From Strigamia acuminata (taxonomy: Eukaryota; Arthropoda; Chilopoda; Geophilomorpha; Linotaeniidae): a DNA stretch of 64,000 nucleotides. Location of the stretch: positions 26,459,118 to 26,523,117 of the forward strand of contig OX442314.1 of NCBI GenBank assembly GCA_949358305.1, written 5' to 3'. The number at the start of each line of letters is the position of its first letter. Positions within the stretch are counted from its first letter, which is position 1. The notes beneath the pieces are model-generated. The model was not told where the DNA came from and searched no databases. It was given only the letters and a program-made list of their open reading frames with translations. Shown piece by piece: positions 44,850 to 63,647 of the stretch. Position numbers and translations under genes: made by a program.

Positions 44850-45845
44850 TGTGGTGACCCGACTGGGGTGGGGCACGAAGAGTTTCTCTCGTGGCCTACA
44901 TACGGGTAAAGAAGGGGAGTCGCACGCGCGCCTCCCTTCCCTCAGAGCATTGACATCCAGTCAATGGACGGGCGTCTGCCCTGGGGGAGTGGGGGAGATT
45001 CGTCTTCTCCACTATTGGGTGGCTTTAGTCACCTGTCACCCCCCGCTTTGTGCAAAGGAATTCGCCTTGCACTGAGCGGAGAGAACCAACACAAAAATCA
45101 ACCAAGATACACGTAAAAGCCAAACGTCCTAAAACGATCAAGCCTAAGTACAAAGACTTCAGGAGTGACCTAGGACAAGGGACTTTCAACGTGAGTACGA
45201 TTGATTTGTGTTAACCTCCGCAGAGTAACCTGCGAAACAAGATTACCACACTATTTTAGCAAGCCAGCTAGAAATAGTAAACCTACTCCAATTTAGCGAG
45301 TTGTGCAGACAAACGGTCGCACAAGCCTAAATTGCAGTAACCACGACGAGCGTTCCCGCCGCTGTGTGTATCGCCGGGAACCACCAAGCGTCCGCCGCTG
45401 TGTGATCGCCGGACACCTACAAAAAACCCTAAACCTAGACAACAGACCAGAAGTAAGACCTTTCAGGCATTCACTCGCGCCCGACCAGCGTGAGCCCGAA
45501 GGACCGAACGAGAAACGTGAGACGAGGACGCCATTCATTGCCACGCCGGCCCAAGACGACACCACGTTGCCACGCGGACGCCATCTTGGATCCACAGCGA
45601 CAAAGGACGACCTCGACCAGTTTCCCGCCAACTTCACACCCCTTTCCTTTTACCTTTTTATTCCCTTACATATTTTATTCCCTTTTAACTGTATATTCCC
45701 GTATAATAAATACATTTATTATATTTACCTTTTACATTGTCTTGCCGTGTTACATTATTTGGGTAACCGCTTGAGTAAAGCGGTATTGCGAGATCAGAGA
45801 GTGACTCATACCACGTATCAGCGACAGACCGAGTTGAGCGCGACA
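44850..45845 (+). repeat. 5' LTR, 996 bp
   Basis: It starts TGTGGTGACC and ends GAGCGCGACA. No difference from the 3' LTR (57376-58371) was seen when read side by side, and both are 996 bases. An AATAAA lies at about 45,704. A strong splice donor AAC/GTGAGT lies at 45,190/45,191 and could feed a spliced subgenomic RNA. The motif CGCCATCTTGG (45,579-45,589) is YY1-like. Confidence 0.95.
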
Positions 45846-45847
45846 CG

Positions 45848-45867
45848 TGGGGGCCTGTCCGGGATCG
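45848..45867 (+). other. presumed primer binding site
   Basis: Two bases after the 5' LTR the sequence reads TGGGGGCCTGTCCGGGATCG. It starts with TGG, as expected for pairing with a tRNA 3' CCA end, and its complement contains GATCCCGG, resembling a T-arm. I could not assign the tRNA. Confidence 0.55.
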
Positions 45868-45913
45868 ATTTAAACGACTCGAATAGAACTTGAGATCATT
45901 TTCATACCCAAAA

Positions 45914-48900
45914 ATGGCAGACAATATCCGAGTAACGGATTCCGACTCCGACGCGAACAAGAGAGCCGGCAGTCGTAAAGGCGCCGACTATCACTTGCGA
46001 TCTGGAGGTCCCTTACCCAAAGCCTCAGCGCACGAAGCGAGGCAAAAACGGCGCAAGCCTAAACCCGATCGCAGAAGCGCATCAGAGGCATCGCACCCGT
46101 CTCGTTCCGAGACGAGGCAGCGATTGGACGAGACAGAGCGGGGTGAAGAGCAATCTCACTCCAAACTGCCGCGTTCTAACCGTGACGGCGAGACGAGCGG
46201 AAACGAGGTTTTATCCCGTAACCCATCGCCTCGTCTAACGCACGACACCGAGGTGGGCAGTCCGAAAGCGGCGTCTCCGATACAAAAGACGGCCTCAAAC
46301 ACGACAGCTAATTCGGCACTAAACACGCCAATTACGCAAAGCCGCCCAGCTTCGGTCAGGTCCGAAGGACACAAGTCCAATGCGTCAAAAACTGAGCGTG
46401 TTCCGAGCCAGCCTTACAGCGTCTCGGCCACATTGGTTGACACGATGCAGTTGGCACAGGCAGAAGGTGTACGATACACTCTGCCAACGGGAAAAATAAC
46501 TGTGTACGAAACATTACAAATCGTACGTGCAGCTTTAAGAGCGCACAGGTTATCCCCAGAAATCACCGTTGTTGAAGACGCATACGCTCAACAAATGGTA
46601 GACTCCGCTCAATTCGAAGCGGATGCCGAGAATGAGGCCCGACAAGCCATCCGCGAGAGAAAGCGGAAGCTGGCGGAAAGAGAAGCGCGAGCTCTCGAGT
46701 ACGGCAAATCCCAGCGCGTTCCGACTACTCCAGAAGAAGTCGAAATAGTTGATCGAGCCTTACATGCACATCGTTATGCATTCCGTTCTCAACAAGAAGC
46801 TGAACAAGCTTTCATGACTAGGCTGCAACGAGACAAACCAAAATCCGTTCGCAAGCCAGAAGTTAGCTCGTCCGAATTGTCCGACGAGAGCGTAGAAGGC
46901 GACCCGAAGCGCACGCCGAAGGTCAGCCCCAAACCCGAGCGAAAAAAGGAAGTGCCAGTCACTCCACGCAAACGGGAAGTCTCGACCGAACAACGCGTTC
47001 GACCTCGCATGATGGCGTTAGACGATAACACTAACAACGCTATCAACCGATTAATAAATGCGAACAACGCGCGTCGTAACGAAGAACAGACTCACACGAG
47101 CCGACAACGCGACGACCCGCGGGGTAACGACTGGCAACAGCCGGTACCCATCCTCAAAGACGACGGACCTTCGAGAAAACCTTCCGAAGACCGCACATCG
47201 TCACGAGAGGAACGTCAACGCGAAAGAGGACAGCAACAGTATCACTACGGAAACAGTGATTCGTCGTCGGATGAACTGGAGTCGAATGCACCCAGTCATC
47301 ACGATTCGGAGAGAGGTTCCGGAGAAAGACGAAGGGAAAGAGAACGCGATGAACGCAGGGAAAGGGAACGTGACGACCGTCGTAGGGGCCGGAAAGAGTC
47401 AAACTCTTCACGGCGCAACCCGCCACGCCGCTCACCGTCTCCTGACCCCAGCTCCGACCCCTCGTCCAACGACGACAGACGAAATGATAAGTCAAGTAAT
47501 CGCCGGAAGAGATCCAACTCTCCGCGCGATAGAGAGAAACGACGTCGATCGGAAAATAGCGACCACCGACGGGAGGAGTTTCAGGACCTTCCCCGACAAA
47601 GCGCGTTTACCGATTCGACGGGTCGGCAGTATACGATGGGAGAGCTTGGAAGAGCCCTGCTTGGCTCGTTAAAAGCCGAAGGAATCGATCTGAGCAAACG
47701 AAATGATCGTAATCGTAACACTGGTGACCGCGTAAAGAAAAAATACGCTGTCTCCCGACGTGACACCATGAGTGTTACCGGGAATATTAGGTGGCAATTT
47801 TATATTCAGAACCGTTTCGACGGGTCATGGAAAGCGGGAGATCGCTTCCTTGACGAAGTAATTCGGATTAAGACTGCCACTAAAGCCACCGTAGGAGACA
47901 TGCTCACCCACGGTATTGTCGAGCTAATGACAGGCTCGGCACGTGAGTGGTACCAAGGATTGAAAGGCGTCAATTGGGACGACTTTTTAATGAGATTCGA
48001 CCTGCGCTACGGCGAGACACCCGAAGAGGTGAGCCGAAAGATGCGAGGTCTTCGCCAGATGCCTGGTGAAACCATAATGGATTACGACATTCGCGCCAGA
48101 TTGTTGTTCGAAAAGGCCCCGATGGAATTTCATGCCACGGGATTCAACCTTTTCTTTCTCGGCGGTTTGTCGGAATACTCGCAACGGGTGCTACTTGAAG
48201 AAAGGGCACCGACAGGAGGCAGCTACGAAGAAATGAGCGCCTTCCTGTTCGAGAACACGATAGATATCGAGAAGAGATATTATTCCGCTTTACCAGAAGC
48301 GGAGAAAGCAGCAACCGCTAAACGTCTCAAGTTGAGTGCGGAAAGATATGGGGCGACAGACAAAATCATGCGCCCTACTGAATATCTTAGCGGTATAATG
48401 GAGCTGGCAGAAGCTAGCGTTGGTTTACAAATAAAAAATAAACTGACATCCACGCTGCCTTCCAACCCATTGGCCGCCCCTAAAAAGGCACCGACAGCGT
48501 CAGCCATGCAAGCGACACTGGAGGAGGTCAAGGAGGGGGAGGAAGCCGAACAAAATGTCGGAAAATCAGACGAAAAAGAAGAAAAAGACGATTATTCGAC
48601 GGACGAAGAAATACGAAGCTATCGCGATACCTTATCAACGGGTTGCGATGAGGAAGGACCGCTAGTACATCTCATCCATCGAGATAGAGCGGTAGAAGAA
48701 TTTCGCGCCAGGTTAAAACCAAATGCCGGCCGAATTCCGAAGTATTTTCGAAAAAATTACACGCCACCGTCGAAAGTAGACCCTGAAAAAAAGAAATCGA
48801 TTGAAGCCCCAAGAGACAAATCAAATATTCGTTGTTTTAAGTGTAACCAACCGGGTCACTATTCCAATGAGTGCCCAAGAACAGCGAAAGAAGACGCTAA

Positions 48901-48994
48901 GTTTGACGCGATAATGAAGCAGATGGCAGAGATTAAACTCGCCATGGCAAAAAACGAGTCAAAAAACGAGTCAGCGCAGGCGGCGAAGAAATAA
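45914..48994 (+). CDS. gag: Gag polyprotein
   Basis: 1,026 residues from the first ATG; the frame is open from 45,890. The first 600 residues are a long charged, Arg/Glu/Ser-rich region without a recognised fold, unusual for a Gag of this group. The capsid-like part is at about residues 620-800 (AREWYQGLKGVNWDDFLMRF, then MRGLRQMPGETIMDYDIRAR), typical of retrotransposon Gag. One CCHC zinc knuckle (CFKCNQPGHYSNEC) lies near residue 975. The C-terminal end overlaps the open pol frame (48,937-48,994). Gag assembles the particle and binds the RNA. Confidence 0.92.
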   Translation: MADNIRVTDSDSDANKRAGSRKGADYHLRSGGPLPKASAHEARQKRRKPKPDRRSASEASHPSRSETRQRLDETERGEEQSHSKLPRSNRDGETSGNEVLSRNPSPRLTHDTEVGSPKAASPIQKTASNTTANSALNTPITQSRPASVRSEGHKSNASKTERVPSQPYSVSATLVDTMQLAQAEGVRYTLPTGKITVYETLQIVRAALRAHRLSPEITVVEDAYAQQMVDSAQFEADAENEARQAIRERKRKLAEREARALEYGKSQRVPTTPEEVEIVDRALHAHRYAFRSQQEAEQAFMTRLQRDKPKSVRKPEVSSSELSDESVEGDPKRTPKVSPKPERKKEVPVTPRKREVSTEQRVRPRMMALDDNTNNAINRLINANNARRNEEQTHTSRQRDDPRGNDWQQPVPILKDDGPSRKPSEDRTSSREERQRERGQQQYHYGNSDSSSDELESNAPSHHDSERGSGERRRERERDERRERERDDRRRGRKESNSSRRNPPRRSPSPDPSSDPSSNDDRRNDKSSNRRKRSNSPRDREKRRRSENSDHRREEFQDLPRQSAFTDSTGRQYTMGELGRALLGSLKAEGIDLSKRNDRNRNTGDRVKKKYAVSRRDTMSVTGNIRWQFYIQNRFDGSWKAGDRFLDEVIRIKTATKATVGDMLTHGIVELMTGSAREWYQGLKGVNWDDFLMRFDLRYGETPEEVSRKMRGLRQMPGETIMDYDIRARLLFEKAPMEFHATGFNLFFLGGLSEYSQRVLLEERAPTGGSYEEMSAFLFENTIDIEKRYYSALPEAEKAATAKRLKLSAERYGATDKIMRPTEYLSGIMELAEASVGLQIKNKLTSTLPSNPLAAPKKAPTASAMQATLEEVKEGEEAEQNVGKSDEKEEKDDYSTDEEIRSYRDTLSTGCDEEGPLVHLIHRDRAVEEFRARLKPNAGRIPKYFRKNYTPPSKVDPEKKKSIEAPRDKSNIRCFKCNQPGHYSNECPRTAKEDAKFDAIMKQMAEIKLAMAKNESKNESAQAAKK
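48949..48967 (+). promoter_or_regulatory. two tandem -1 frameshift heptamers (A AAA AAC)
   Basis: AAAAAAC occurs at 48,949-48,955 and again at 48,961-48,967, each in the gag phase A AAA AAC required for simultaneous -1 slippage. The pol frame is the -1 frame and is open across both sites, with the nearest upstream stop at 48,934-48,936. Each is followed by GAGTC. A downstream pseudoknot was not tested. Confidence 0.8.
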
Positions 48995-49017
48995 CTTCTC
49001 GACCGTCTGCGCCATTC

Positions 49018-52000
49018 ATGAAGAAGAAGGGGTTTAACAAAGGGTTCGATAAACCGCCACCAGTCAAAGAAATGGGTAGTGACATAGCTAACGCCCAGAT
49101 CCAAGACAGGGCCAACAACGCTTTGCAGGTAATTACCGCAAACGCTGAGGCTGAGGCGGAAGAACCAAACCTACTGCTTGAAGAATTACCTCAAGTAGTC
49201 GAAGACACAGAAGAATTTCGTGTTTTCATGTGCAACGTGGCGGTCGAATATACCAGCCGCCTATGTATGCTGCCCATGACAATAGAACGCGAAAAAATTA
49301 TGGGACTGCTAGACTCGGGAGCAGATCGCTCGTTCGTTTCCGAAGACATAGTAGCATCATTGGGTCTCACCGATAAGATAAAAGGCGTTAATAAAAATGT
49401 ACGTCTAAAAACCGCCAACGGAATGGCGCGTCCAAAAGGAGTTATAATATTGACCATGGAGTGGCTCGGAGGGGTAGAACAGCACCCTTTCCTGGTCCTG
49501 CCCACGTGCGACAGAATTTTTCTGTTGGGCTTAGACCTCATGGCGTCAATGGAAATACAACCAAATCCAATAACGAAATCTTGGAATTATATCAGAAATG
49601 ATAGAGAAAGACCCGCAATTGTCGTGCCACCAGCTCTTATCAAAGAAGCGGCCGACAAGACACAGTGGGAGAAAGGCCTAAAGAAATTCGTTCAAGACTA
49701 CAATTTTAAAGCATTCGTAGCAGAATTGCAACGGGACAATGTAGTGGAAACGCTTGTCGCCGACGCCGCTTTAGAATTAAACGAAGCGGCAGCCCTACGA
49801 AGGGTCCTACTTAAATATGAGGGGATCCTGTCGAAAAAACCGGGCCGAACGAATAGGGCTATTCACGAGATTAAATTGACGGATAATAAACCTATACGAG
49901 TTGCGTATAAGGGAATGAACCCGCAAAAACGTGAAATAGTACAAAAAATGTGCCAAGAAATGCTAGACAGTGGCATTGTCTCCGAGGCCCAGGGAGAATA
50001 CGCGACGCGAGTTGTGCTCGTGATGCGCCCGGGCTCGGACCCACGCCTATGCATTGATTACCGCCCATTAAACGCGGTGACAGAGATAGATCCCATACAG
50101 ATGCCGTCTATCGAATCCATTTTGAGAGAGCTTAGCCCCTTTTCTTGGGTTACGACGATGGATCTGTCGAAGGGATACTGGCAAGTTGAGATGAGGCCAG
50201 AGGATAAGCTAAAAACAGCATTTTACTCGCCAATTGGACGGTTGATGTTCAACGTCATGCCGTTTGGTTTAGTGAATGCTCCCAGTACCTTTCAGAGACT
50301 AATCGAAAGCGTATTGGGTGATATCCTGCATCAGTTCGTGTGGGCATACCTAGATGACATAGTTATTGCCTCTAAAACATTCGAAGAGCACATTGAGCAC
50401 ATCGACCAAGTGCTCACCCGGCTGGCGAAAGCTGGGTTACACGTTCATCCGGGCAAGAGCAAGTTCTGCCGAAAGGAGCTTGCCTTCCTGGGTTATCGCA
50501 TTGGAGTCAACGGTTTAGCTATTGGCCCCGAAAAAATCGATGCGATTAATCGTTTCCCACCACCCGAGGACGTTAAAGGTGTCCAACGGTTTATGGGAAT
50601 GATAAACTTCTTCGGCAGGTTGCTACCGGGTCTAGCTGAAGTGGCAGCCCCAGTTACCGACCTCCTGAAGAATGAAAACGAATTTGTATGGTCAAATGAG
50701 TGCAACATCGCATTTAATGCGATAAAGAGGATGCTGACGGAAGTCGGCGTAATGCCTCTACCCGACTTAAACCGGCCGTTCATATTACATACGGACGCCA
50801 GCAGAGTTGGGTTAGGAGCGGCGTTGCTCCAAACACACGTGCGCGACGGAGTCGAACAAGACCTGCCGTGCATGTTTATAAGTCGCAAACTCCAAGGCGC
50901 TGAAAAAAATTACAACGCCACAGAGTTGGAGTGTTTGGCAGTTGTGTGGGCTATAAGGAAATTCAGAGATTATCTCGAATATACCAAATTTGTAGTCCAC
51001 ACAGATCATCAAGCGTTACAATGGCTGATGAAATTAAAGGAGCCAGCCGGTCGACTAGCCAGATGGCAGTTAGAACTGATGGCATGCGACTTGACCATTC
51101 AATACAAGCCCGGCAAATATAACGTCGTGGCTGACGCTCTATCAAGGGCACCAGTGTCAGATCCTATCGACGCTGACGATGATGGCGAGGATGATTCCCG
51201 CATCATTTACTGCCCGACGAGTTGTCACCGTTGGGATTTAAGGAAAATAAATGAAATTCCCACCGCGTCTCCAGCAGATGTAAAATTCTGTGGATTCTGG
51301 ACGCGGTTATACCAACCAGCTGCTGACAATTACCCAAATGCAAAGAAGGAACTTAAGCTAGAGCGGAGAATAAATGACCCGCTTCTAAGCGCCTTCCACA
51401 CTCATGTCGGCAAGCAAATGCGAAGCAATCCCCCGACAAGGGAGGAAATAATTGTGCAACAAAAATTAGACAAGAAATGTCAGGATAGAGCTAGATTCGT
51501 ACTGACAGGAAAATATCCGCCCAACTTAACCAGAAGGCAGAAGCGTCGTTATGCACACGAATCCATAGATTACCTATTGGATGACGGCCTTTTGGTGAAA
51601 CATCACCCAAATCACCAAGATGACTTGAGTGAATCGGACACCGCAGTAAAGGTAGTAATACCTGCTTCCTTAATCGGTCGCGTGCTGTGGTTGTTACACG
51701 GGCACCCGCTTGCGAGCCATGCGGGAGTAAGCAGAACACTCTATCGTGCTACACAGCTTTTTCACTGGACAGGGATGAAAAAAGATATTGCTCTTTTTGT
51801 CCACCAATGTCAGCGATGTCAAGCGTGCAAGCCGAGGAGTAAATCACCATTCGAAACTATTTTCTTAGGGCCTTACGCGCCTTTTGATTGTTTAAGTGTC
51901 GATGTGATGGGCCCAAAACCCGTTACGGGAAATAAAAATGCGTACATTATCGTTATAATGGACGTGGCGACTCGTTGGCCCGAGTTGTACGCCGTCGCTA

Positions 52001-53088
52001 GACCTTCAGCAGAAAAAATCGTTGAATGTATCTACGACGTAGCGTTACGTTACGGATTTCCACGTAAAATGATATCCGACAACGGACCCCAATTTATCTC
52101 GAAAATTTGGGGTAAGTTTTGTGAGAAATTCGGGATTGTGGCGTCACATACTTCGACCTACAATCCCAGAACAAATCCCGTTGAGCGACTCAACAGGGAC
52201 ATTAAATATGCACTAAGTATATTCACTGACATCCACAATAGGTGGGATGAATACTTGAGGGAGATCGCGTTCAGCATACGAACAACAGTCTCGAGGACGA
52301 GAGATTTTTCTCCGGCCTACCTCAACTTCGCCCGGGAGCTACGAGTGCCTTGGGACCCACGAGTGGCAGAGTCAGTAAATGTGGTGGACCCCGAGAAACC
52401 ACATGAGTACGTGTATAAATTGGAGCAAACCATCTCCAACACGTACAAGCACATGATGGCGCACATTTTTAACATGCGCGACCGCATTTTACAAGATAAA
52501 AGCGGTGGAAAATTCGTGAATTTCGAGATTAATGATTTAGTGTGGAAGGACACACACATCCTCTCAAATGCAGCGAGAGGAATCACCGCCAGCTTGGCCG
52601 ACAAAAGAGACGGTCCGTATGTGATCATCGGCAAGCATGGCGGTAACGCGTATAAATTACGTAAGCTCGAGGACAATACCGAGCACAAATCGATCCAGGT
52701 ACGAGAGTTAACTCCGTACATTCCGGAATTCCCGCAAGAAATGTGGGCCAAGGGCCAAGTCAAGTCAAAAACTGACGGCCAAATCGTCGATATGTTCGCT
52801 GGCGAGTCGGAAAAAGCACCGCCAAGTGACAACGAGGAGTATTTCGACGCCCCTTCACCACCGGTAAACGAGATAGTTGAATCCGTTCCGGATCCAATTT
52901 TGGTCGGGGGGGAAACAGGAGAAACTCCTGAAACAAACACAAAAAACACGGATAAAAAAGAAAACAATAATGAGGAGGTACAGACACAAAAAACAACAAA
53001 AAATATCGTACCTGTCTCGACTCATCACCTGCGGCCCCGTGGAAGTAATCCGTTTATAAAAGACGGAAAGGTCGTAGGAAAGGAGTAG
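49018..53088 (+). CDS. pol: Pol polyprotein (protease, reverse transcriptase, RNase H, integrase)
   Basis: The open frame runs from 48,937; the first ATG is at 49,018 (1,356 residues from there). It is probably made by -1 frameshifting from gag. Protease with LLDSGADRSF near residue 97. Reverse transcriptase with MPFGLVNAPSTFQR and active site YLDD near residue 444. RNase H with HTDASRVGLGAALL near 591 and ATELECLAVVWAIRKF. Integrase with an HHCC finger (GHPLASHAGV … QRCQAC), catalytic Asp in CLSVDVMG near 962, second Asp in SDNGPQFIS and Glu in NPVERLNRD. A GPY/F-type module (DGPYVIIGKHGGNAYKL) follows. No chromodomain was seen. The C-terminal 120 residues are acidic and disordered. All catalytic residues are present. 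Confidence 0.95.
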   Translation: MKKKGFNKGFDKPPPVKEMGSDIANAQIQDRANNALQVITANAEAEAEEPNLLLEELPQVVEDTEEFRVFMCNVAVEYTSRLCMLPMTIEREKIMGLLDSGADRSFVSEDIVASLGLTDKIKGVNKNVRLKTANGMARPKGVIILTMEWLGGVEQHPFLVLPTCDRIFLLGLDLMASMEIQPNPITKSWNYIRNDRERPAIVVPPALIKEAADKTQWEKGLKKFVQDYNFKAFVAELQRDNVVETLVADAALELNEAAALRRVLLKYEGILSKKPGRTNRAIHEIKLTDNKPIRVAYKGMNPQKREIVQKMCQEMLDSGIVSEAQGEYATRVVLVMRPGSDPRLCIDYRPLNAVTEIDPIQMPSIESILRELSPFSWVTTMDLSKGYWQVEMRPEDKLKTAFYSPIGRLMFNVMPFGLVNAPSTFQRLIESVLGDILHQFVWAYLDDIVIASKTFEEHIEHIDQVLTRLAKAGLHVHPGKSKFCRKELAFLGYRIGVNGLAIGPEKIDAINRFPPPEDVKGVQRFMGMINFFGRLLPGLAEVAAPVTDLLKNENEFVWSNECNIAFNAIKRMLTEVGVMPLPDLNRPFILHTDASRVGLGAALLQTHVRDGVEQDLPCMFISRKLQGAEKNYNATELECLAVVWAIRKFRDYLEYTKFVVHTDHQALQWLMKLKEPAGRLARWQLELMACDLTIQYKPGKYNVVADALSRAPVSDPIDADDDGEDDSRIIYCPTSCHRWDLRKINEIPTASPADVKFCGFWTRLYQPAADNYPNAKKELKLERRINDPLLSAFHTHVGKQMRSNPPTREEIIVQQKLDKKCQDRARFVLTGKYPPNLTRRQKRRYAHESIDYLLDDGLLVKHHPNHQDDLSESDTAVKVVIPASLIGRVLWLLHGHPLASHAGVSRTLYRATQLFHWTGMKKDIALFVHQCQRCQACKPRSKSPFETIFLGPYAPFDCLSVDVMGPKPVTGNKNAYIIVIMDVATRWPELYAVARPSAEKIVECIYDVALRYGFPRKMISDNGPQFISKIWGKFCEKFGIVASHTSTYNPRTNPVERLNRDIKYALSIFTDIHNRWDEYLREIAFSIRTTVSRTRDFSPAYLNFARELRVPWDPRVAESVNVVDPEKPHEYVYKLEQTISNTYKHMMAHIFNMRDRILQDKSGGKFVNFEINDLVWKDTHILSNAARGITASLADKRDGPYVIIGKHGGNAYKLRKLEDNTEHKSIQVRELTPYIPEFPQEMWAKGQVKSKTDGQIVDMFAGESEKAPPSDNEEYFDAPSPPVNEIVESVPDPILVGGETGETPETNTKNTDKKENNNEEVQTQKTTKNIVPVSTHHLRPRGSNPFIKDGKVVGKE

Positions 53089-53568
53089 AAAACGTTACGA
53101 GTCGATGGCGACGCTGAAAAACAAAAAAATTGACCGATCGACAGCGCTAGCCATCAAAATCCGAGACTCTGAAAATTTCGCTAAGTCCAACAAAGCGGAT
53201 ATCGGTCGAATTCGCGTCACGAGATGGCGTGGAAACGCGGGACCCGTAGCAAAATTATCGGCACGGGTCGGATACCGCGTGCAAAAGACCCCGTAGCAGC
53301 GATCGCGCACGGGCGTAGAAACAAAGGAGCCCCGTAACGTAACATGCGCACGGGCTGTTGCGCACAGTCATAAGCACCTGGTTCTGGAGTAAAATTACCC
53401 AGAACCCACCACGATTGCCTCGTTTTCACCCGGACTTCCGCTAAAATCAGCTGATCGTCGTCCGCACGTGATACACAGCGAGTGCATTTTTAACCAAGTT
53501 TTTGATCCATTTTACGAGAAGTTTTCAAGTTTTTTAATCGTGGTCTGACTGAACGCGCAATCCTCACG
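53089..53568 (+). other. spacer between pol and third gene
   Basis: A 63-codon basic frame (53,105-53,296) begins 17 bases after the pol stop. It has an ATG but no recognised similarity, and I do not call it a gene. A possible splice acceptor AAAATCAG at about 53,451 could serve a spliced RNA that begins in the LTR. Confidence 0.35.
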
Positions 53569-56500
53569 ATGGATGAGGAAGGAGGGGACGAGGAAATGCT
53601 TGAAATACAGCATCATGACGAGAATTGGGACCCGGACATAAACGTAGTTCCACCCGATCAGGTAGTAGTCGGCATCGCCGCACGAGATTTAGCTCCGTGC
53701 GGTCGAATTAAAGATACACTTGACTAATACTTGACATGAACGCTCTGCGTTCGAAATAGTGTATAATTATTATACTAATATCCACGATCGCGAGAGCGAT
53801 TGTATTTTCTCCTATTATTTGTCTTCAAGGACGCGATAGCAGACAAACTGTCGCCTCGCTCCTTGAAGATGACTCACGACAATTGACACGAACGAGACAA
53901 AGGAAACGAGCTTTCTTTTTATATTCCAGAAATGGGAATAATTTATTGGATGGATTTTGAAAGAATTTATAGAACGTTGTTTCTATTTTTATTTGCTATT
54001 TTATTTGCGAATTTTTTCCCGATGACACTAATTTATTATAGATTCGTTTTTTAACTCGACTTTAACTCCGAATTTTTGGAGTTATTATTAGACAAATTTA
54101 TTTCTTTACAAGTTAATTCACGACAAGAACATTTGTTTACATGTTCTAAAATTGTTATTGGAGATTTTCACGAACGATTTCGCGAATTTATTGGTTTAAA
54201 TACAAATTTACAGTTTAATTTTAAATTAAGCAATCCGAAGAAAAATTTCCGGATTAATACGCTCGATTCCGTCTCGTGGTTATCATTGGACGTGAACCAG
54301 ATGTGCCAAGAAGACTCTTTTCTTCCTGACAAGGACGAATCAATGAACAGGAATAGGACTCGACGAGCGGTCGCACGTTTCAGCGACGTTCCTCGAGCCC
54401 ACCCCCTATTTATCTCCGTGTTATTGGCGATTTCATTAATTATTTTGTTTCCATCATTGCAGATGGAGCTCCGAGACACATGGGGAGCGCTCAGCCCCGC
54501 ATGCATAGTGCGAGCGGGCATATATCGAGGCGTACTGCCCGATTTTCTGCGCCGCTGCTTTGGCGAAGATGCGAAGCCATACCGCCTGCGCGTATTATTT
54601 TCGCGCGCCCTCGCCAAGCGTTGGGTTAACGATTGTACACTCCTGGACGCGTTCCCGGAGTCGGTGCGAAACGTCGTCGCTGCAGAGCTCGCTCGCATCG
54701 ATGACCCGAAGTCACCAATCTTCCACCCGGCCCTGTCGAGCCAATACTCCGGCAGGCCGGCGGAGGAGCATGTGTTGTTCGCGTGGCAAGCGGCCGAGAC
54801 CGAGGAGGCCCGCGAAGAAGTGTATCAACACTACCGCCAGCAGCTAATCGACACTGCGCCGGCGGTTGCAGAGCGGATTTTGCAAGACGACGGAATGAGC
54901 ACCGCCGATATACATCTGTGGTGCGAGCAGATTCGGCAGGGAGAAGTTACGCCACAGTGGCGACCGAGAATGGGGATTCTCACGTCACAAGCTGAAATGT
55001 GGCAACTCCACTATTTGGGAATTCTCGGCCCCAAATATAATTTCCCAAGGAAGCGCAAGCGCTCCAAGGGAACCGGGGGCAGCGAATCGCGCTCCCCGGG
55101 ACGGTCGAAGAAACAGTGCGTCGAACAGCACTCGACCGTCAACGATGGAGCGGGAACGTCAGCGCAGCCACCGCGCGACCCCGCGAATTACACCAGACCA
55201 AGGGTGTTCGTCAACCGTCAGATGAAAGACGGTAAAGAGACTCGAGAAGTCTGGATTTCGGGTGACGAAGAGCGAGTCTCTCGTCCCCGTGTCGGCAGAC
55301 ATCCGCTAACTCATCGTGAGCAGCGGAAACGAGACCGCAAAGAGCGGTATTTCGCTCGCTGCGAGGCGCGAGGAATTCCCCTTCCCGAACACGCTCTCAA
55401 AGCAATCGAAGCGAAGGAAGCGAGAGAGGCACGATCGAAGTCGAGTGGCCGATCTTCCGGGGAGCGTCGCGTCCTAGCGCCAGACACGCGGGACCTTCGC
55501 GAGATCATCACCCAGATGAAACGCAAGAAATTGTCTCGTTTCGACCCCGCGATGCAGTTCGCTCGCAAGATGGGCGTCGTCGAGCATGGTACCGTGATTC
55601 CACACGAAGTGGCACGGTGGTTAAGCGAATATGTCAATTCGCGACCGCGTGTAGAAAACGCGCCTACGGCCGTCGTTCCACCGACGAGTACTGTAAGCCA
55701 GCTCCCGGCACTCCAAGTCACGCCGACTGGAGTGCAAGCGACGCTGCCACCGCCAACACAACAGTCTTTGACGTTGCTGTTGCCGACGCAGTCATCAACG
55801 TCGCAACCGTTGCCAGCACAGCAGTCCCTGACGCTGCCGCCGCCGACACAGCCGCTGCCGCCGCCGACGCAGCCCCCGCCGCCGCCGCCGCCGATGCCGG
55901 GTTCGAGCACTACGCCGAACTTGGCCGTCGACGACTCGGTGATGTTGCCCGTTCACCAGAGCATTGCGCGGGAATGCCATAACGCCCGATTCGGAGAATA
56001 TTACCCGAGCAAGGCAAGACACGACCGCACCGCGATGTGGTATGAACAGCGTGACGAAAACGCACGGCTGGCTCGAGAAGCAGCCAATCCATCGATCGAA
56101 GAGCTCTTGGCCTTCGCATTTGTGATGGAGGACCCGAGAGCCGCCGCCGCTGCTCTGCAGGGCGCCGACGTCACTCAGCGCCATTTCATCGAGTGGGGGA
56201 TTTCGATGATGCGGCACCACTCGCGCGCGTTCGCTGCAGATCCTGATCGCAGCAACCCTGTAAATCGGCGCAGTCTACAGCTGGCTTTGACGAAGATCAT
56301 GGTCCAGTTATTGACCCCCTCGCTCTTTGGGGTCGGACGACAGGCGATGGCCTGTTGGTCCGTAGTCGACAGAGAGGGTGTGCAGATACCTCGCGCACTC
56401 GTTGGGGAATGGAGCGCCATTCTCCCCAACCCGGCGATGACTCGCTTCGAGCTGACCCGGGACGTGGTGAACCCCGAATGGGAGGGGTATAAGTTGCGGA

Positions 56501-57336
56501 GCATGGCCTTCCGCCACGCCGTTACCACGTGGGAGCCAACACCGTCAGCGCAGTCACACGCAATGATGGTCACGAGTGAAGAGCCGATGGAGAGCGACGC
56601 CGCCTCTTCGACTGCTTCACGTGGAGCCCCAACTCCACCTCCGCCGCCACCGCCGCCACCGATGCCACCAGCGGCGACACCACAGACACCCGTCCTATCA
56701 AATGCGGCGGGTAGACCCAGACGCTTGTTATGTCGGACGCCACCAACGATGTCCGCCGCTCGCCAGAGCCTGACGCCTCCCGCAGCCCAACAAGCGCGGG
56801 AAGAGACTGTCCAACAAGCGGTAGTTCCGAAGAGCGCCAAGCCAGCGAAAGCGGCGAAGCTTCAGACGAACTATTATGAGAAGTTGTGTGACGAGTTCTC
56901 TCAGCTGTCGATGACGACGGCGACGCGCAAATTCATCCTCGCGCAGAGAGACAAGGGGAAATCGGTATTCGTTTGGCTACACAACCAGGTGCGCCAGACC
57001 ACCGATTTGATCCTCCATCAGCGTTTGCTGAGGGCCCACCGTGCGCCTCGAACGGCCGCGGAGGCGAACGCAATCCGGCACACCAATTCCGGGTTTTCGG
57101 CGTTCATTCCGCGGGTTTGGCTGCATGAGAGGAGGCGTGCCCCGTACGAGCCAGCCGGCGGCCACGATTTGTGCTTTATTTCCGAGCACAAGGACCCCCG
57201 CGACCAGTCTTCAGCCTTGGTTGGAGATCTGGTTTTGCCGCCCGGCGCTGTGCCGCCCGGCGCTGAGCCGCCCGTCCCTGGAGTGAGTTTCGCCCAGGCG
57301 ATGGATCCAGCGTCGGGTCCCAGCAAGAAGGATTGA
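53569..57336 (+). CDS. third retrotransposon gene (ORF3), spliced, function unknown
   Basis: I do not recognise this family. Proposed exons 53569-53661 (31 residues, starting MDEEGGDEE) and 54463-57336, joined in phase 0 (CAG/GTAGTA donor; TTGTTTCCATCATTGCAG acceptor), 988 residues. Similarity to the third gene of the minus-strand element begins exactly after this acceptor. Conserved blocks: LRDTWGALSP … LFSRALAKRW (residues about 33-85); a middle block around PRALVGEWSAILPNP; a C-terminal block with LILHQRLL, RVWLHE and ISEHKDPRDQSS. Between them are a basic stretch (PRKRKRSKG) and long Pro-rich linkers. There is no signal peptide and no clear membrane anchor, so it is not an obvious envelope protein. 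An unspliced frame is open from 54,076 but has no early ATG. Confidence 0.75.
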
Positions 57337-57360
57337 TCGCTCCGAACACCGGCGGTCAGA

Positions 57361-57373
57361 GCTGGGAGGGGGA
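57361..57373 (+). other. polypurine tract
   Basis: GCTGGGAGGGGGA ends two bases before the 3' LTR and would prime plus-strand synthesis. Confidence 0.75.
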
Positions 57374-57375
57374 CG

Positions 57376-58371
57376 TGTGGTGACCCGACTGGGGTGGGGC
57401 ACGAAGAGTTTCTCTCGTGGCCTACATACGGGTAAAGAAGGGGAGTCGCACGCGCGCCTCCCTTCCCTCAGAGCATTGACATCCAGTCAATGGACGGGCG
57501 TCTGCCCTGGGGGAGTGGGGGAGATTCGTCTTCTCCACTATTGGGTGGCTTTAGTCACCTGTCACCCCCCGCTTTGTGCAAAGGAATTCGCCTTGCACTG
57601 AGCGGAGAGAACCAACACAAAAATCAACCAAGATACACGTAAAAGCCAAACGTCCTAAAACGATCAAGCCTAAGTACAAAGACTTCAGGAGTGACCTAGG
57701 ACAAGGGACTTTCAACGTGAGTACGATTGATTTGTGTTAACCTCCGCAGAGTAACCTGCGAAACAAGATTACCACACTATTTTAGCAAGCCAGCTAGAAA
57801 TAGTAAACCTACTCCAATTTAGCGAGTTGTGCAGACAAACGGTCGCACAAGCCTAAATTGCAGTAACCACGACGAGCGTTCCCGCCGCTGTGTGTATCGC
57901 CGGGAACCACCAAGCGTCCGCCGCTGTGTGATCGCCGGACACCTACAAAAAACCCTAAACCTAGACAACAGACCAGAAGTAAGACCTTTCAGGCATTCAC
58001 TCGCGCCCGACCAGCGTGAGCCCGAAGGACCGAACGAGAAACGTGAGACGAGGACGCCATTCATTGCCACGCCGGCCCAAGACGACACCACGTTGCCACG
58101 CGGACGCCATCTTGGATCCACAGCGACAAAGGACGACCTCGACCAGTTTCCCGCCAACTTCACACCCCTTTCCTTTTACCTTTTTATTCCCTTACATATT
58201 TTATTCCCTTTTAACTGTATATTCCCGTATAATAAATACATTTATTATATTTACCTTTTACATTGTCTTGCCGTGTTACATTATTTGGGTAACCGCTTGA
58301 GTAAAGCGGTATTGCGAGATCAGAGAGTGACTCATACCACGTATCAGCGACAGACCGAGTTGAGCGCGACA
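57376..58371 (+). repeat. 3' LTR, 996 bp
   Basis: Same length as the 5' LTR and no difference seen. Followed by the right copy of the AAAT duplication (58372-58375), after which IR exon 5 resumes. Confidence 0.95.
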
Positions 58372-59307
58372 AAATATCTTGTACAGCAAAATTATGTACC
58401 CCAAGCATAATTTCAACTCAAATAATTCCTTCTTTCCATTACAATATCTCTATAGGAATTGAACCTGTGAGTAAAATACAAATAATGTAAACTTTTTATT
58501 TCTTTTTTAATCATTTATTTTTAGTTTATGCCTGATGCAATTGTGATTAAAAAATATGACAATGGAACAATTTTGTTTCGTGGATTTGTCTATGACTTAT
58601 TGATTTCTTACCTCTGTCCCACAATGAAATTAAGGTTTGTGTCATTAAATAGAGAAACTACTGAACTAAAATTAATTTTTTTTTGTAAATAGTGTGATCG
58701 AAGTGTATGGAGACCATTTAAATAATGAAGCAATCTATGAAATGATAATTAAAAAAGTAAATATGGGTCATAGAATGTAAAATGCACTATTTTTCCATAT
58801 AGTTTAAAGAAATTTCTTAAAACGGGATGCGTCTTAACCCTAACAGTACAAACCTAAAATGCCTACTCACCCAACCGGGTCATTTCGATGATTTTAGTAA
58901 AAAAAAGTTAGTTTGGACCAACAAAAGACATTTTGGACCATAACAAATGACATTTTGGGCTACAACAAATGACATATTCTACCTAAAAATTATGTTTTTC
59001 TTTTAAAATCCAAATAATGTCTAATTATTATTTTACGTGTTTTCTTAGAAAATTGATACAAGCACTACACCCTACATTATGACATCATGTCGAGTTCCCT
59101 ATGTGGACAGTGTGGCTTTAGAAATGAAGCGTGATAATTTGGCAATTGCAGTAGTACTTTCATCTCAAATCGAAGACTTCATGTGGTTCACATTCATCAA
59201 ACCATTCAGTTGTAACATGTGGATTTGCTCAATTTTGCTTAGTCTTTTGTTAAAATTTATTTTTGAAGCAATTCTTCGTACAAAGAAATTGGACAATTCA
59301 AATACTC

Positions 59308-59552
59308 GTAAGTTATATTGCTTGTTGACACAGACCAAGCAAGCCAGCTCTGAACATTCAATCCAATTGATGCGGCGATCCGGGTTTTTACTTAATAAAT
59401 CGGGGAGACTTATAAAGCAATCGTCGTAGAAATGCCGTACAGGACTTCTACTCTGTGGCCAAATGTTTGTCTAGGGGAATGATTTTACACAGAGTAAAGG
59501 AAAAATTAGATAGTTTTAATCGTTCAAAATACAAAGGAGGTATTATTTAAAA
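59308..59552. other. IR gene B intron 8 remnant
   Basis: After the donor at 59,308 there is AT-rich sequence without an exon 9. It ends at the presumed LTR border of the minus-strand element. Confidence 0.5.
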
Positions 59553-60433
59553 TGTTTGGGGTCGATCTGGCTTCTTCTTCAAATGTACACTCACAGTTGA
59601 CCGTTGGCTCCAAGATGGCGTCGATGGCGTCGTGTGAGCGCGGGATTTTAGCGGAGTAAACTCAACGCTAAAATACCTTGCTGAATATACTAAAATCCTC
59701 GTGGAGCACGCTCGACACGAGAATACGTCTTGCACACAGCGGTTCGATTATTACGGAGCAAGCTCGACGTAACAATCGGTCTTTACACAAATCGCTTTGT
59801 GGAGTTAAACTCGACACAAAGCCTTCAAACTAACAGAGTAAACTCGATGTTAGTTTCACACAGAAATGGCTTAAATTACGCGTAGTAATTCAAGCTAGAA
59901 AGTTGCTATTCCGTACAGTGGGTACAGACCAGCGATGAAACTCAATTCGTCCAAGAATCACAGATCACACTTTGCAGTTTTGGCAGAAGTTTGACACGGT
60001 TGTGAACAGTTTGGAGGTAGAATCAAGAGTGCGGGAAGAGTGGGCCAAAACCGTTTGGCTCACTTCTAAATCTGCTCAGAAAAGCTGCGCAGATGACGAG
60101 TTGCACAAAGATCACACACGGCCGCCTTCGGGTCGTGTGCAACAATTGAGCCGGGCACGCGCGAGGGGAAGGGATGCTCCGCCCAGGCACACGCCTAGCA
60201 GCATCATCAAAGCAATGCACGCTGCAGCGTGATTGGTTGACGCTGTTGCTGGGCCAAAACTTGCTGCAAAACACAATATTATTTGGGTAATATTGTGTCT
60301 TGTTTTATATTTTATTAATGTATGTTTTATTTCAATTTACATTGAAACAAAACATATAAGCTTGTTGAATATGTTTATAAGACAATTTGGAAATATGGTG
60401 CGCACTCAAATAGGAATATTTGAGGTCACCACA
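59553..60433 (-). repeat. 3' LTR of a second LTR retrotransposon, minus strand
   Basis: On the minus strand it starts TGTGGTGACC at 60,433, the same ten bases as the LTR of the first element, directly after a polypurine tract. The inner end is less sure: a CA at 59,553 fits, giving 881 bp, but the partner LTR lies outside the window, so it cannot be checked. It contains CGCCATCTTGG (59,610-59,620 in complement) in the same orientation as the first element. The rest differs clearly. Confidence 0.65.
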
Positions 60434-60435
60434 CT

Positions 60436-60448
60436 TCCCCCCCTTTTA
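60436..60448 (-). other. polypurine tract of second element
   Basis: On the minus strand AAAAGGGGGGGGA-type sequence directly precedes the LTR start. Confidence 0.65.
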
Positions 60449-60605
60449 AGAAAGAATCTTATTCTTTTCCAAAAAGAGACAGGTAAGTATAGGAATAAAT
60501 ACACAAGGTTTCAAAGTAAAAATGGAACAGGATATTTATTCTTTTTTATTACAGTAAAAAAAAATAAAAAAGGAATTATTTTTAATGAATGGGCATGTTC
60601 CCTAA

Positions 60606-63441
60606 TTATTTAGGCAACATGTCCGTTGAATGATCGTTTGGATCTTTGTGCTCTGTGACGGTGCACAAAGATCGGCCGGCGTTTGGTCCTGACCGGAAGC
60701 CAGGGTTGATGTGGAGCCACACTTGCTTTATGCGGTCTACACCATCCCTTCGTCCAAAACCCATCTCGAAATACTCCTGCGGGTCTTGAGGCGTAATTCG
60801 GGCGAACACCAGGCGTTGATGTAGGATCCACGGCTGTTGTTCCTTGATGTGGTTTTCCAGCCACGCGAGGACTCGGTTGCATAAATCTTCGCTGTTCTGG
60901 AGAATCGTTTTCGTCGCGCTCGTTATGTAGCAAAAGGCGTATAACGAGCGCAAACGTTGATAGGCGGTGAGGTGGGTGGCCATATTTGATCCCCTATCTC
61001 TCGGCGGCGAATCCTTTGGAGGAGGCGGCGGTGGTGGCGACTTCTTGCAGATCGAGAGGGATCTGGATCTGCGCGAAGCCGGGGCGCGCGTCTTTGGTCT
61101 GGCACCGCTGGCCACAGGCACGACGAACTCGCGATCGTCGCTGTCGAGCCACTCCATTGGAGACGAGATGTTGCAACTCGGTGCCTCGGTTGCACGGGAA
61201 ACACTCGACGTTGCCGTGATGGCAGCGTGGAGTGGAGCTGCGGATGACGGTGGTGCGCCAGCGGGACGGGCGGTGGCTCGTTCCGTTGTGCGCTGCTGCT
61301 TCAGTGTAGCCCATTCCTGCCGTAGTCGAATGGCGGATCCAGCCGGAGTTTCGCCAGTCGCCTCGGCTTGTTGCGTCAATTCGGCGAGCATCGTTGGAGG
61401 ATCGGGGCGAACTGACTCCCAATCGCCCAGCAAGGCTCGTGGAAGCCCTAACGGCACGGTCCACAATCGAGTGGCGGCCGCCAGAGCAATCTGTGGGTCG
61501 GGAAAGACTCCTTGGAACAGGATTCGAAGAAGTCCCTCCGACAACTTCCTGTTCATCTTCTGCAGCGCCCGTTGCAGTTGCTTGTCGGACTTGCACGACG
61601 CAAGCTCTCGCGCAAGCCATTGCCATTCCTTCTCACCTTCGCGGATCTGAGCGAGTTGGTATTCGTCCAGATGCGCGAGGTACATCGCTTGGGCTGTCTC
61701 GGGAAACGATGAGAATCGCCTCCAGAGATCAGCGCACTCCTGTGCTGGAAATGGTTCGGGAGGAACGTATCCCTCGAAACGGATGACAGTTGTCACTTGT
61801 GGCACGGGCACAGACGTATCGGGTCGCATGTCGCTGGTGACTGGACGGCAAGCGAACGGCAAAGAGGTGTTGACGTCTCCTTGACCGGCTTACAATGCGG
61901 CGATGCGTTGATCTTCTTTCGCTATCTCGTCCGACCAGTCAATCCGGCCGGAGGAGGAAGCGCTAAGCTGTGAAGCGTTGGACCTTTCTTCACGCGACGA
62001 GAGTGAACTCCTCGTGGAAGATTGGCGCGATTGCACTCGAGGTCGGCTTCGGGATGTGGGTCTCGACACGGACTTCGAATGTCTTTTTGGCGGCGTCGAC
62101 TCGCGTCGGTGATGTGAGCGATGACGAGCTTTCTGGAGTGGAGGTAACCCTCCAATGGCGCCTTCCCCCGACGACTGTGTTGGGGAGGAGCGACGGCCAC
62201 TGTAGGGCGACCTCGATGATCGTGACCTCGACGTGGAGCGCGGTGGCACCACGTGGATGGTGGAAGCGACCTGTACCCGGGGCTCGGGCTCTGGATACGG
62301 GTTTGGCACGAAATCAGCATGGAAACATCCGCCCATGGCTAGTTGATGCATCTCCGATTGGCATGTCGGCACCCAACGTTTCTTTCCGTCTGTGGTTGGC
62401 CGGAAAGATTCGTGGTAGAGGCGCACAACCTCGGCCTTGGTTTGATCAAGACGTTGGAAAATGTCCTCCAAAATCTGTCGACGCTCCCACGCAGGAGCGT
62501 TGAAATAACGGCGATGGTCTCGCGTTTCTTGAGCGATCACTACGAAGGCGAAGTCGAGCAACACGTTTCGTAGTGGTCCGAAGGTGTCGCGCTTCATTGC
62601 CCATTCGAGGGCGTCGCGATGACCGAATCCATCGATTAAATAGGCGATCCGAAACTTTGTTCCCCATCGCTTGTTTAAGGCTTTGGAGAATTTGTGTCGG
62701 GCCGCCCAAAACGTCAGTCTTCCTTTAGACTTGATGATTTCTGGCGGCAATGCATGTCGCCAGACTCCAGGAGCTGTTGGAACATCGGGGTGCAGTTCGA
62801 GATGTGTTTCCCGAAGCTGGATGATCTGTAAAATATTCGAAGAAATAATTAAAATCCATTTTTTCGCTAAAATTAATTATTTCCGAATTTTCAGTGAATA
62901 AAATCACGGGTGAGATTTCATTCGACGGTTTAGATTCGTTAAATTTTTCAAAACATTTGAAAAATCGTGAAAAACGTTGTCTCTGACGGCTATGTTTCAG
63001 TGTTTGGAGCGTTACCGTAGCAACGCCTCAAAAATGAGACACAGCGCCATCTGATGGTAAAAATGGCGGCGTCTTCTTGCGAAGACGTTACCAACGAACT
63101 TTTTGCTTTTTCCGAGTGAAAATGCACTTTTAATTACTTTTCATGACTGAAAGGTAATTTTATTTTAAATTATTTACCCGTTCGTGTCTCTGTGCACGAG
63201 TTTCGCCGTTTGGATCGGCGAATAGGCCTCCTCGTAGTTGTGGTCGGGGCGGCGTGACTGGCAAACGGGCTGCAGCGTCGGCCAGAGCGGCTTGAGCTTC
63301 GGCTGACGCTTCGGCGGATGCCTCGGTGACATCCACGGATGCATTCGAGGTGTTTGCGGAACCAAGCAACGTCGAATTTGTTTCTAATTCGAGGCTGTTG
63401 GCGCCGGCTTCGCTTCCTTCTTTCGGTTCCTCTTCTTCCAT
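60606..63441 (-). pseudogene. third gene (ORF3) of second element, one in-frame stop
   Basis: Proposed exons 63441-63178 (88 residues, starting MEEEEPKEG) and 62825-60606, phase 0 (CGG/GTAAAT donor; ATTTTACAG acceptor). After the acceptor it matches the ORF3 of the first element: QLRETHLELHPDV … KFSKALNKRW, RNVLLDFAF, GLPRALLGDWESVRPDPP, WILHQRLV, QVWLHINPG, VTEHKDPNDHS. A Pro run and Arg/Ser-rich linkers lie between, as in the first copy. A single TAA at 61,890-61,892 interrupts the otherwise open frame between the N-terminal and C-terminal blocks. It is either a disabling mutation, a programmed readthrough or a split into two proteins. No envelope features are seen. Confidence 0.72.
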
Positions 63442-63647
63442 TTGAACGACTAATCCAAATGGAAAAGAAAAACGAAAATTAATTTATTAGTTTTTCCTTG
63501 GAAAATTCCAAAGAAAAAACTACTTACAATCGGAGATTCTGGGACAATTAATCCTGTCGTTTCGCTTTTGGTTTGGGATGAGCACTTAACACACGTGTGA
63601 GATCGAAGTGAACTCAGACGCGAAGTGATCAGTTCAAATACCGGAAG
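63442..63647 (-). other. spacer between pol end and ORF3 of second element
   Basis: About 200 bases without a supported frame, corresponding to the 480-base spacer in the first element. Confidence 0.4.

Follow-up and report, generated by a model that had tools for sequence, protein, structure and literature searches.

A spliced third gene shared by three LTR retrotransposon families in the genome of Strigamia acuminata

What is the long gene that two long terminal repeat (LTR) retrotransposons carry between pol and the 3' LTR, and what might it do for them? The question arises from a stretch of 64,000 nucleotides in the genome of the centipede Strigamia acuminata, here called the window (positions 26459118-26523117 of contig C1 in an assembly of 237.5 Mb, which the genome searches covered). 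Element A, on the plus strand, is complete, and element B, on the minus strand, extends beyond the window. The gene, designated open reading frame 3 (ORF3), is also carried by a third family, C, located elsewhere in the same genome. At least three retrotransposon families in this one genome have it, and in families A, B and C alike it lies between pol and the 3' LTR. ORF3 is a genuine third gene of a Ty3/gypsy lineage, consists of two coding exons and is the product of a spliced RNA.

The exon structure is similar in the three families (coordinates for A and B are given in Table 1). In A, the ATG is at 53569, exon 1 ends in CAG followed by the donor GTAGTA, and the acceptor TTGCAG stands just before 54463. 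The long frame in the raw list of reading frames (from 54076) begins within the intron, and the true exon 2 is 54463-57336. The 88 codons of exon 1 in B end in CGG, the donor is GTAAAT, and exon 2 starts after TTTTACAG at 62825. Family C has the same layout; in copy L055, for example, CAAGAGAGG is followed by the donor GTAAAT, and the acceptor ATAG by ATCGAGAGG. In all three families exon 1 has its own ATG downstream of pol, is not in the gag frame and opens with an acidic stretch. The phase-0 intron falls directly before the N-terminal (N) conserved block, which begins with LRDT, LRET and RDRET in A, B and C, respectively. The ORF3 proteins of the three families are 22-44% identical, yet they have position, intron site and intron phase in common.

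A search for further ORF3 copies, proposed with the original prediction and run in this genome, recovered many copies of A and B in addition to family C. Only the best candidates were scored and some matches are pieces of one copy, so that the copy counts are lower bounds: at least 42 matches for the A query, at least 100 for the B C-terminal query (including partial and split copies, the last of them a C copy) and at least 59 for the C query. In family A, 40 places matching exon 1 were listed. At 35 of these an open reading frame follows at the spacing expected with the intron and at one more the spacing is one base less; three others hold the intron by reading, so that it is kept at 39 of 40. 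The remaining copy, L061, has exons that are 100% identical and a contiguous pol (99.8% over 2001 bp). Among 36 distinct copies of family B, 33 were readable, 26 with the intron and 7 without. A less biased rate comes from the 30 best-scoring matches, where the intron is absent from 2 of 27 readable copies; of the seven B copies without the intron, five were selected for long open frames, as was the one in C. Two relatives of B, L040 and L041 (65% and 84%), were left out of this scoring. In family C, one copy in four (L057) is intronless and the other three keep the intron; the junction in L057 was judged from the translation and is exact to the residue. The losses in A and B are exact to the base. 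In copies L046/L032 and L057 a short intron in the leader, before the ATG, is missing as well. On a tree of exon 2, the seven intronless B copies need five changes, and well-supported branches force at least four of them; as small a number suffices in 35 of 500 label shuffles, and some clustering of losses is possible. In the intronless B copies L046 and L047, the frames of gag, pol and the fused ORF3 are open over the stretch read.

Because the intronless A and B copies have a contiguous pol, the introns were spliced from genomic RNA, and because most copies keep the intron, the RNA that is usually reverse transcribed is unspliced. Recombination with a spliced cDNA would yield the same pattern, and would likewise need spliced RNA. 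The genomic RNA of these elements carries spliceable introns, and spliced genomic RNA is sometimes reverse transcribed, while most copies derive from unspliced RNA.

The motifs that the original prediction quoted for both elements are present in the order claimed, and the shared blocks that they mark are real and not due to chance, with significant BLASTP E values for each block. Between A and B these are 6e-5 for the N block, 1e-6 for the middle block and 1e-17 for the C-terminal (C) block; the whole C-terminal half gives 2e-16. The N block reaches only 0.09 if the B frame is taken from a start 25 codons too far downstream. The N block of family C matches that of B clearly (6e-17) and that of A weakly (0.026).

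ORF3 is constrained nearly as strongly as gag and pol. The matched part is free of stops in 41 of 42 matches for A, 92 of 100 for B (C-terminal query) and 55 of 59 for C, and exon 2 is open throughout in 22 of the 30 B copies fetched. In the C-terminal part of family B, the ratio of nonsynonymous to synonymous substitution rates (dN/dS) is 0.118 (30 copies, 435 pairs; the B copies came from a search that favours high protein scores, and this depresses dN somewhat; pol and gag of the same copies serve as the control). Compared in the same four B copies, two of them intronless, dN/dS is 0.114 for ORF3 exon 2 versus 0.089 for pol, and 0.056 for gag (three of the four). Exon 1 of B gives 0.215 (9 copies). 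Family C shows values of 0.12-0.18 (six pairs, dS 0.20-0.68), and every 95-codon block of the pair L039-L055 is at or below 0.29. The A copies are so alike that they show at most a trend (8 copies in 28 pairs, few changes, dN/dS between 0 and 0.68). A selected function for the element, suggested earlier from the retention of the gene in both elements, is borne out by the dN/dS of 0.11-0.18 in families B and C.

Judging from its sequence, ORF3 is an orphan within the libraries searched. A set of 5.8 billion proteins, which holds arthropod and other eukaryotic proteins, contained no relative of A exon 2 at E ≤ 0.1 or of the C-terminal alignment of the three families at E ≤ 1 among the best 7992 candidates (those sharing most words) scored in each search; relatives could have been missed because of the length window of 0.55-1.75 or of eukaryotic gene models that are split. 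As a control, pol of the C copy L039 gave 2077 matches in the same set, the named ones coming from a pseudoscorpion, a tick, a centipede and insects, and also from fish, a starfish and others. No locus in IMG/VR matched the C-terminal half of B or exon 2 of A, and no relative was found in Pfam, NCBIfam or PDB sequences. For nine of nine aligned ORF3 members, Pfam at E ≤ 1 returned no family and thus no envelope match. One match in PHROGs is at chance level (0.053), and no paper describing the gene turned up in the searches of open-access PubMed Central (PMC) literature. The gene had been described as impossible to place in a known family, and profile searches that might have put its blocks in a known envelope, nucleoprotein or host family gave no placement.

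The earlier view that ORF3 is not an acquired envelope is likewise supported, as it has neither a membrane-length hydrophobic stretch nor a Pfam envelope match. A hydropathy scan found no signal peptide or membrane-anchor stretch in exon 2 of A, B or C, where the highest 19-residue values are 1.39, 1.25 and 0.88 (1.67 in pol), or in exon 1 of A and B (at most 0.52). Exon 2 encodes between one and three N-glycosylation sequons and 0.7-1.4% cysteine, and a single cysteine is invariant over nine aligned proteins. The conserved layout consists of three blocks joined by proline-rich linkers, with a run of at least seven prolines before the C block in all four proteins checked, which represent the three families. 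The net charge of exon 2 is positive (+27 in A, +31 in B and +16 in C), and the linker of B is rich in arginine-serine (RS) dipeptides (17 RS/SR in 100 amino acids, reached in 0 of 500 shuffles). Structure predictions of the blocks are mostly helical but of low confidence (mean predicted local distance difference test score 45-46), and fold searches with the model of the C-terminal half gave no meaningful match. An origin of ORF3 as a duplicate of Gag was also considered and found no support, the hhalign probability against the elements' own Gag being 2.3% at low depth (Neff about 2).

The RNA of elements A and B folds better than shuffled sequence over most of its length, unlike average host windows. 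Windows of 350 nt over the elements have a mean z of -3.3 to -3.8, several lying below -6, compared with -0.8 for 50 host windows. The ORF3 introns likewise fold better than their shuffles (z of -7.8, -9.6 and -6.5); with other shuffles the B intron gives -5.5, and 350-nt pieces of the A intron -2.9 to -5.4.

CERV is the third gene of Cer1, a Ty3/gypsy element of C. elegans; it has five exons, the first three in the gag frame, and encodes 517 amino acids, with a cysteine-rich region and with structured domains joined by flexible linkers (PMC10309623). Like CERV, ORF3 lies between pol and the 3' LTR, is spliced, has no assigned family, is not an envelope and shows conserved blocks with proline-rich linkers; like Cer1, these elements keep spliceable introns in their genomic RNA. 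The spliced mRNA is here deduced from intronless genomic copies in the three families. ORF3 differs from CERV in that its first coding exon follows pol and its exon 2 encodes 739-957 amino acids, and export has been demonstrated as the function of CERV, whereas for ORF3 we infer it. ORF3 is not classed as CERV because its first coding exon is outside the gag frame and it has no cysteine-rich (C4-type) region. No sequence relation to CERV came to light among the candidates scored in the set of 5.8 billion proteins.

Rev and Rex of complex retroviruses, and Tas and Bet of foamy viruses, are regulatory proteins made from spliced RNA and encoded at the 3' end or close to it. They are mostly much smaller than ORF3, and the comparison with it is by description. 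The envelope of errantiviruses (insect endogenous retroviruses, iERV) also follows pol and is expressed by splicing, but ORF3 is without its membrane-type stretch or a Pfam envelope match. The MDG1-group sORF2 (FAST-like) is another accessory gene, of insect gypsy elements, with a reported low dN/dS; it encodes 63-107 amino acids with a membrane helix, is mostly upstream of gag and is expressed from unspliced RNA (PMC11952523), in contrast to the 739-957 amino acids of ORF3 exon 2 and their lack of a membrane stretch. Extra genes after pol are also found in bdelloid LTR elements (their ORF3 genes; PMC5408684) and in Retand (TRP28; PMC11963269), and are described as recognisable enzymes, env-like or antisense; by these descriptions they are set apart from the present gene, which is in sense and has no family match. 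Further literature drawn on comprises PMC12992720 and PMC12440569. An accessory regulatory gene in an LTR element has precedent; none of the libraries and papers searched contains the ORF3 family or its arrangement of exons after pol.

The reading that we favour, tentatively, is that ORF3 acts in the nucleus as a regulator of the element's own RNA, resembling CERV and Rev in effect while apparently being an unrelated protein. The spliced mRNA would give rise to the ORF3 protein, which would then favour exporting or using the genomic RNA in its unspliced form, with introns, in which it encodes Gag-Pol and is packaged. Where this control fails, spliced genomic RNA would be packaged and reverse transcribed, producing the intronless copies seen in the three families. 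The common position and intron, the constraint, the lack of a membrane stretch, the basic runs in A that resemble nuclear localisation signals (NLS) and the RS-rich linker of B are consistent with such a role. Retention of unspliced RNA as the main template is also the problem that Rev and CERV solve, which supports a regulator of RNA. Several observations weigh on the other side. The NLS-like runs are spread unevenly (three in A, one in C and none in B), and a leucine-rich motif of the nuclear export signal type occurs once, in A. An RS domain as a trait of the whole family was rejected, as the C2 protein is marginal (15 of 500 shuffles) and the A and C1 proteins are not enriched (173 of 500 each). 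A candidate element in the intron comparable to the Rev response element was dropped, given that the whole element folds well and covariation is poor (1 of 114 pairs within B). Between the B and C introns any likeness is weak at best, their scores being reached by 8 and 30 of 200 shuffles, and neither resembles that of A. Simple retroviruses, moreover, export unspliced RNA without a protein of this kind, and the layout need not imply one. A broader and more doubtful proposal is that ORF3 founds its own protein family, which would solve the export of intron-containing RNA in arthropod LTR retrotransposons as a separate invention of the Rev/CERV strategy; the retained introns would be a switch between the regulator mRNA and the packaged genome, and the intronless copies a fossil record of its failures.

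Ranked next after the RNA regulator, and rather unlikely, is a protein that controls transcription or counters silencing. It would be expressed from an internal promoter lying between pol and ORF3, as in foamy viruses, and would act on LTR transcription or host silencing. The spacer of family C favours such a promoter a little: in L039 and L057, the two of four C stretches that cover the region, two perfect cAMP response element (CRE) octamers (TGACGTCA) stand 56 bp apart and enclose TATA-like motifs (TATAAG plus TATAAT in L039, TATAAT in L057), just upstream of a leader exon bounded by GTAAGT. A separate leader exon near the gene would suit an internal start, and the nuclear-type features also fit a transcriptional regulator. 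However, the A spacer contains no CRE, the site in B lies within the end of pol, and Pfam identifies no DNA-binding domain; the intronless A and B copies, moreover, derive from RNA that runs through pol, which means that spliced, LTR-driven RNA exists. The proline runs before the C block and the mostly helical predictions could instead point to a virion, assembly or trafficking factor, a second nucleoprotein or adaptor that would bind host SH3, WW, EVH1 or profilin partners through poly-proline. This is unlikely in view of the low hhalign probability against the elements' own Gag, itself obtained at low depth, and of low-confidence models without a meaningful fold match.

It is quite improbable that ORF3 replaces the envelope as a divergent fusogen or a factor for transmission between cells. 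Its position and spliced expression are those of an errantiviral env (EMBO J 2025), and transmission without an envelope through an accessory protein has been reported for MDG1 elements (PMC11952523), but its hydropathy is below that of pol, sequons are few, cysteine is about 1% and Pfam gives no envelope match. It seems just as improbable that ORF3 was captured from the host, has a host-related activity and has diverged beyond recognition. Other LTR elements have captured genes in this position (PMC5408684), and a gene with an intron could stem from a host gene. Against this, an intron would not be expected in a gene captured as cDNA, neither of the two protein searches gave a relative among its best 7992 candidates, and those looked at among the best-scoring genome places listed are element copies.

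LTR retrotransposons are usually seen as gag and pol, sometimes with env, and a large, constrained orphan gene points to a regulatory layer of the sort known from complex retroviruses and Cer1. Copies with the intron stand alongside copies that lack it exactly in this one genome, which offers a natural readout of how frequently spliced genomic RNA is reverse transcribed, and this makes the question of export directly testable.

Table 1. Features of elements A and B, with positions in the window
Feature	Position	Strand	Evidence or remarks
Element A 5' LTR	44850..45845	+	996 bp; TGTGG...GCGACA ends
Element A gag ORF, 1034 amino acids	45890..48994	+	Pfam Retrotrans_gag, zf-CCHC
Element A pol ORF, 1356 amino acids: protease, reverse transcriptase (RT), RNase H, integrase	49018..53088	+	Pfam RVT_1, RT_RNaseH, Integrase_H2C2, rve, aspartyl protease
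Element A spacer between pol and ORF3; leader, possibly promoter	53089..53568	+	sequence only
Element A ORF3 exon 1, 31 codons, acidic	53569..53661	+	40 genomic places listed, all 100% identical; junction seen in intronless copy L061
Element A ORF3 intron, 801 nt, phase 0	53662..54462	+	precisely missing in L061 (53661 joined to 54463)
Element A ORF3 exon 2, 957 amino acids; N, middle and C blocks, two poly-proline tracts	54463..57336	+	blocks align to element B
Element A 3' LTR	57376..58371	+	zero mismatches to 5' LTR
Element B 3' LTR	59371..60433	-	start TGTGGTGACC by eye; end by match to LTR piece before gag
Element B ORF3 exon 2, 739 codons	60606..62825	-	in-frame TAA at 61892-61890 in the window copy
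Element B ORF3 intron, 352 nt, phase 0	62826..63177	-	precisely missing in 7 distinct copies
Element B ORF3 exon 1, 88 codons	63178..63441	-	9 of 9 copies without stop
Element B 5'-leader intron, upstream of ATG	63450..63527	-	GTAAGT donor, TTAG acceptor; removed in L046/L032

The limits of element A at 44850-58371 on the plus strand, as first drawn, are confirmed by its matching LTRs, which are 996 bp each with no mismatches and TG...CA ends, and by AAAT at both flanks, a short target-site duplication. Its Pfam domains and their order, gag followed by pol as protease, RT, RNase H and integrase, are those of Ty3/gypsy elements (Metaviridae). Element B had been taken to enter at about 59.55 kb; its 3' LTR in fact spans 60433 to 59371. 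The copy of B in the window is decayed, with pol in two frames, an apparently truncated 5' LTR and a stop in ORF3. At least 1263 bp of B LTR and the flank beyond it (window positions 59001-60263) are found again, at 99.8%, upstream of this B element (L045, far end), and on this sequence evidence the decayed copy seems to sit in a local duplication.

Some further features were observed in the window and elsewhere in the genome. Upstream of the family C copy of L039 (L044, C1:49946500-49956000), the pol frame yields to an open frame of 1637 amino acids on the same strand, by eye possibly a Copia polyprotein, which may represent a nested insertion. Between elements A and B, at 58480-59340 on the plus strand, lies a sequence (MPDAIVIKKYDNGTILFRGF...; ...FTFIKPFSCNMWICSILLSLL...) that may represent exons of an ionotropic-receptor gene; one exon had no Pfam match. 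Contig C1 begins with TTAGG repeats from base 1; the genome contains 18,704 overlapping 30-base matches to this repeat and a single TTAGGC 30-mer. These repeats, taken with the sources of the pol matches, fit an arthropod host. A short tandem repeat at 15077-15569 of the window is open on both strands and repeats MQFLITK, with a unit of 21 bp by eye. At 6187-8196, an open frame of 669 amino acids contains many repeats of a short unit rich in lysine, serine and aspartate (SKSKDPQLGD...).

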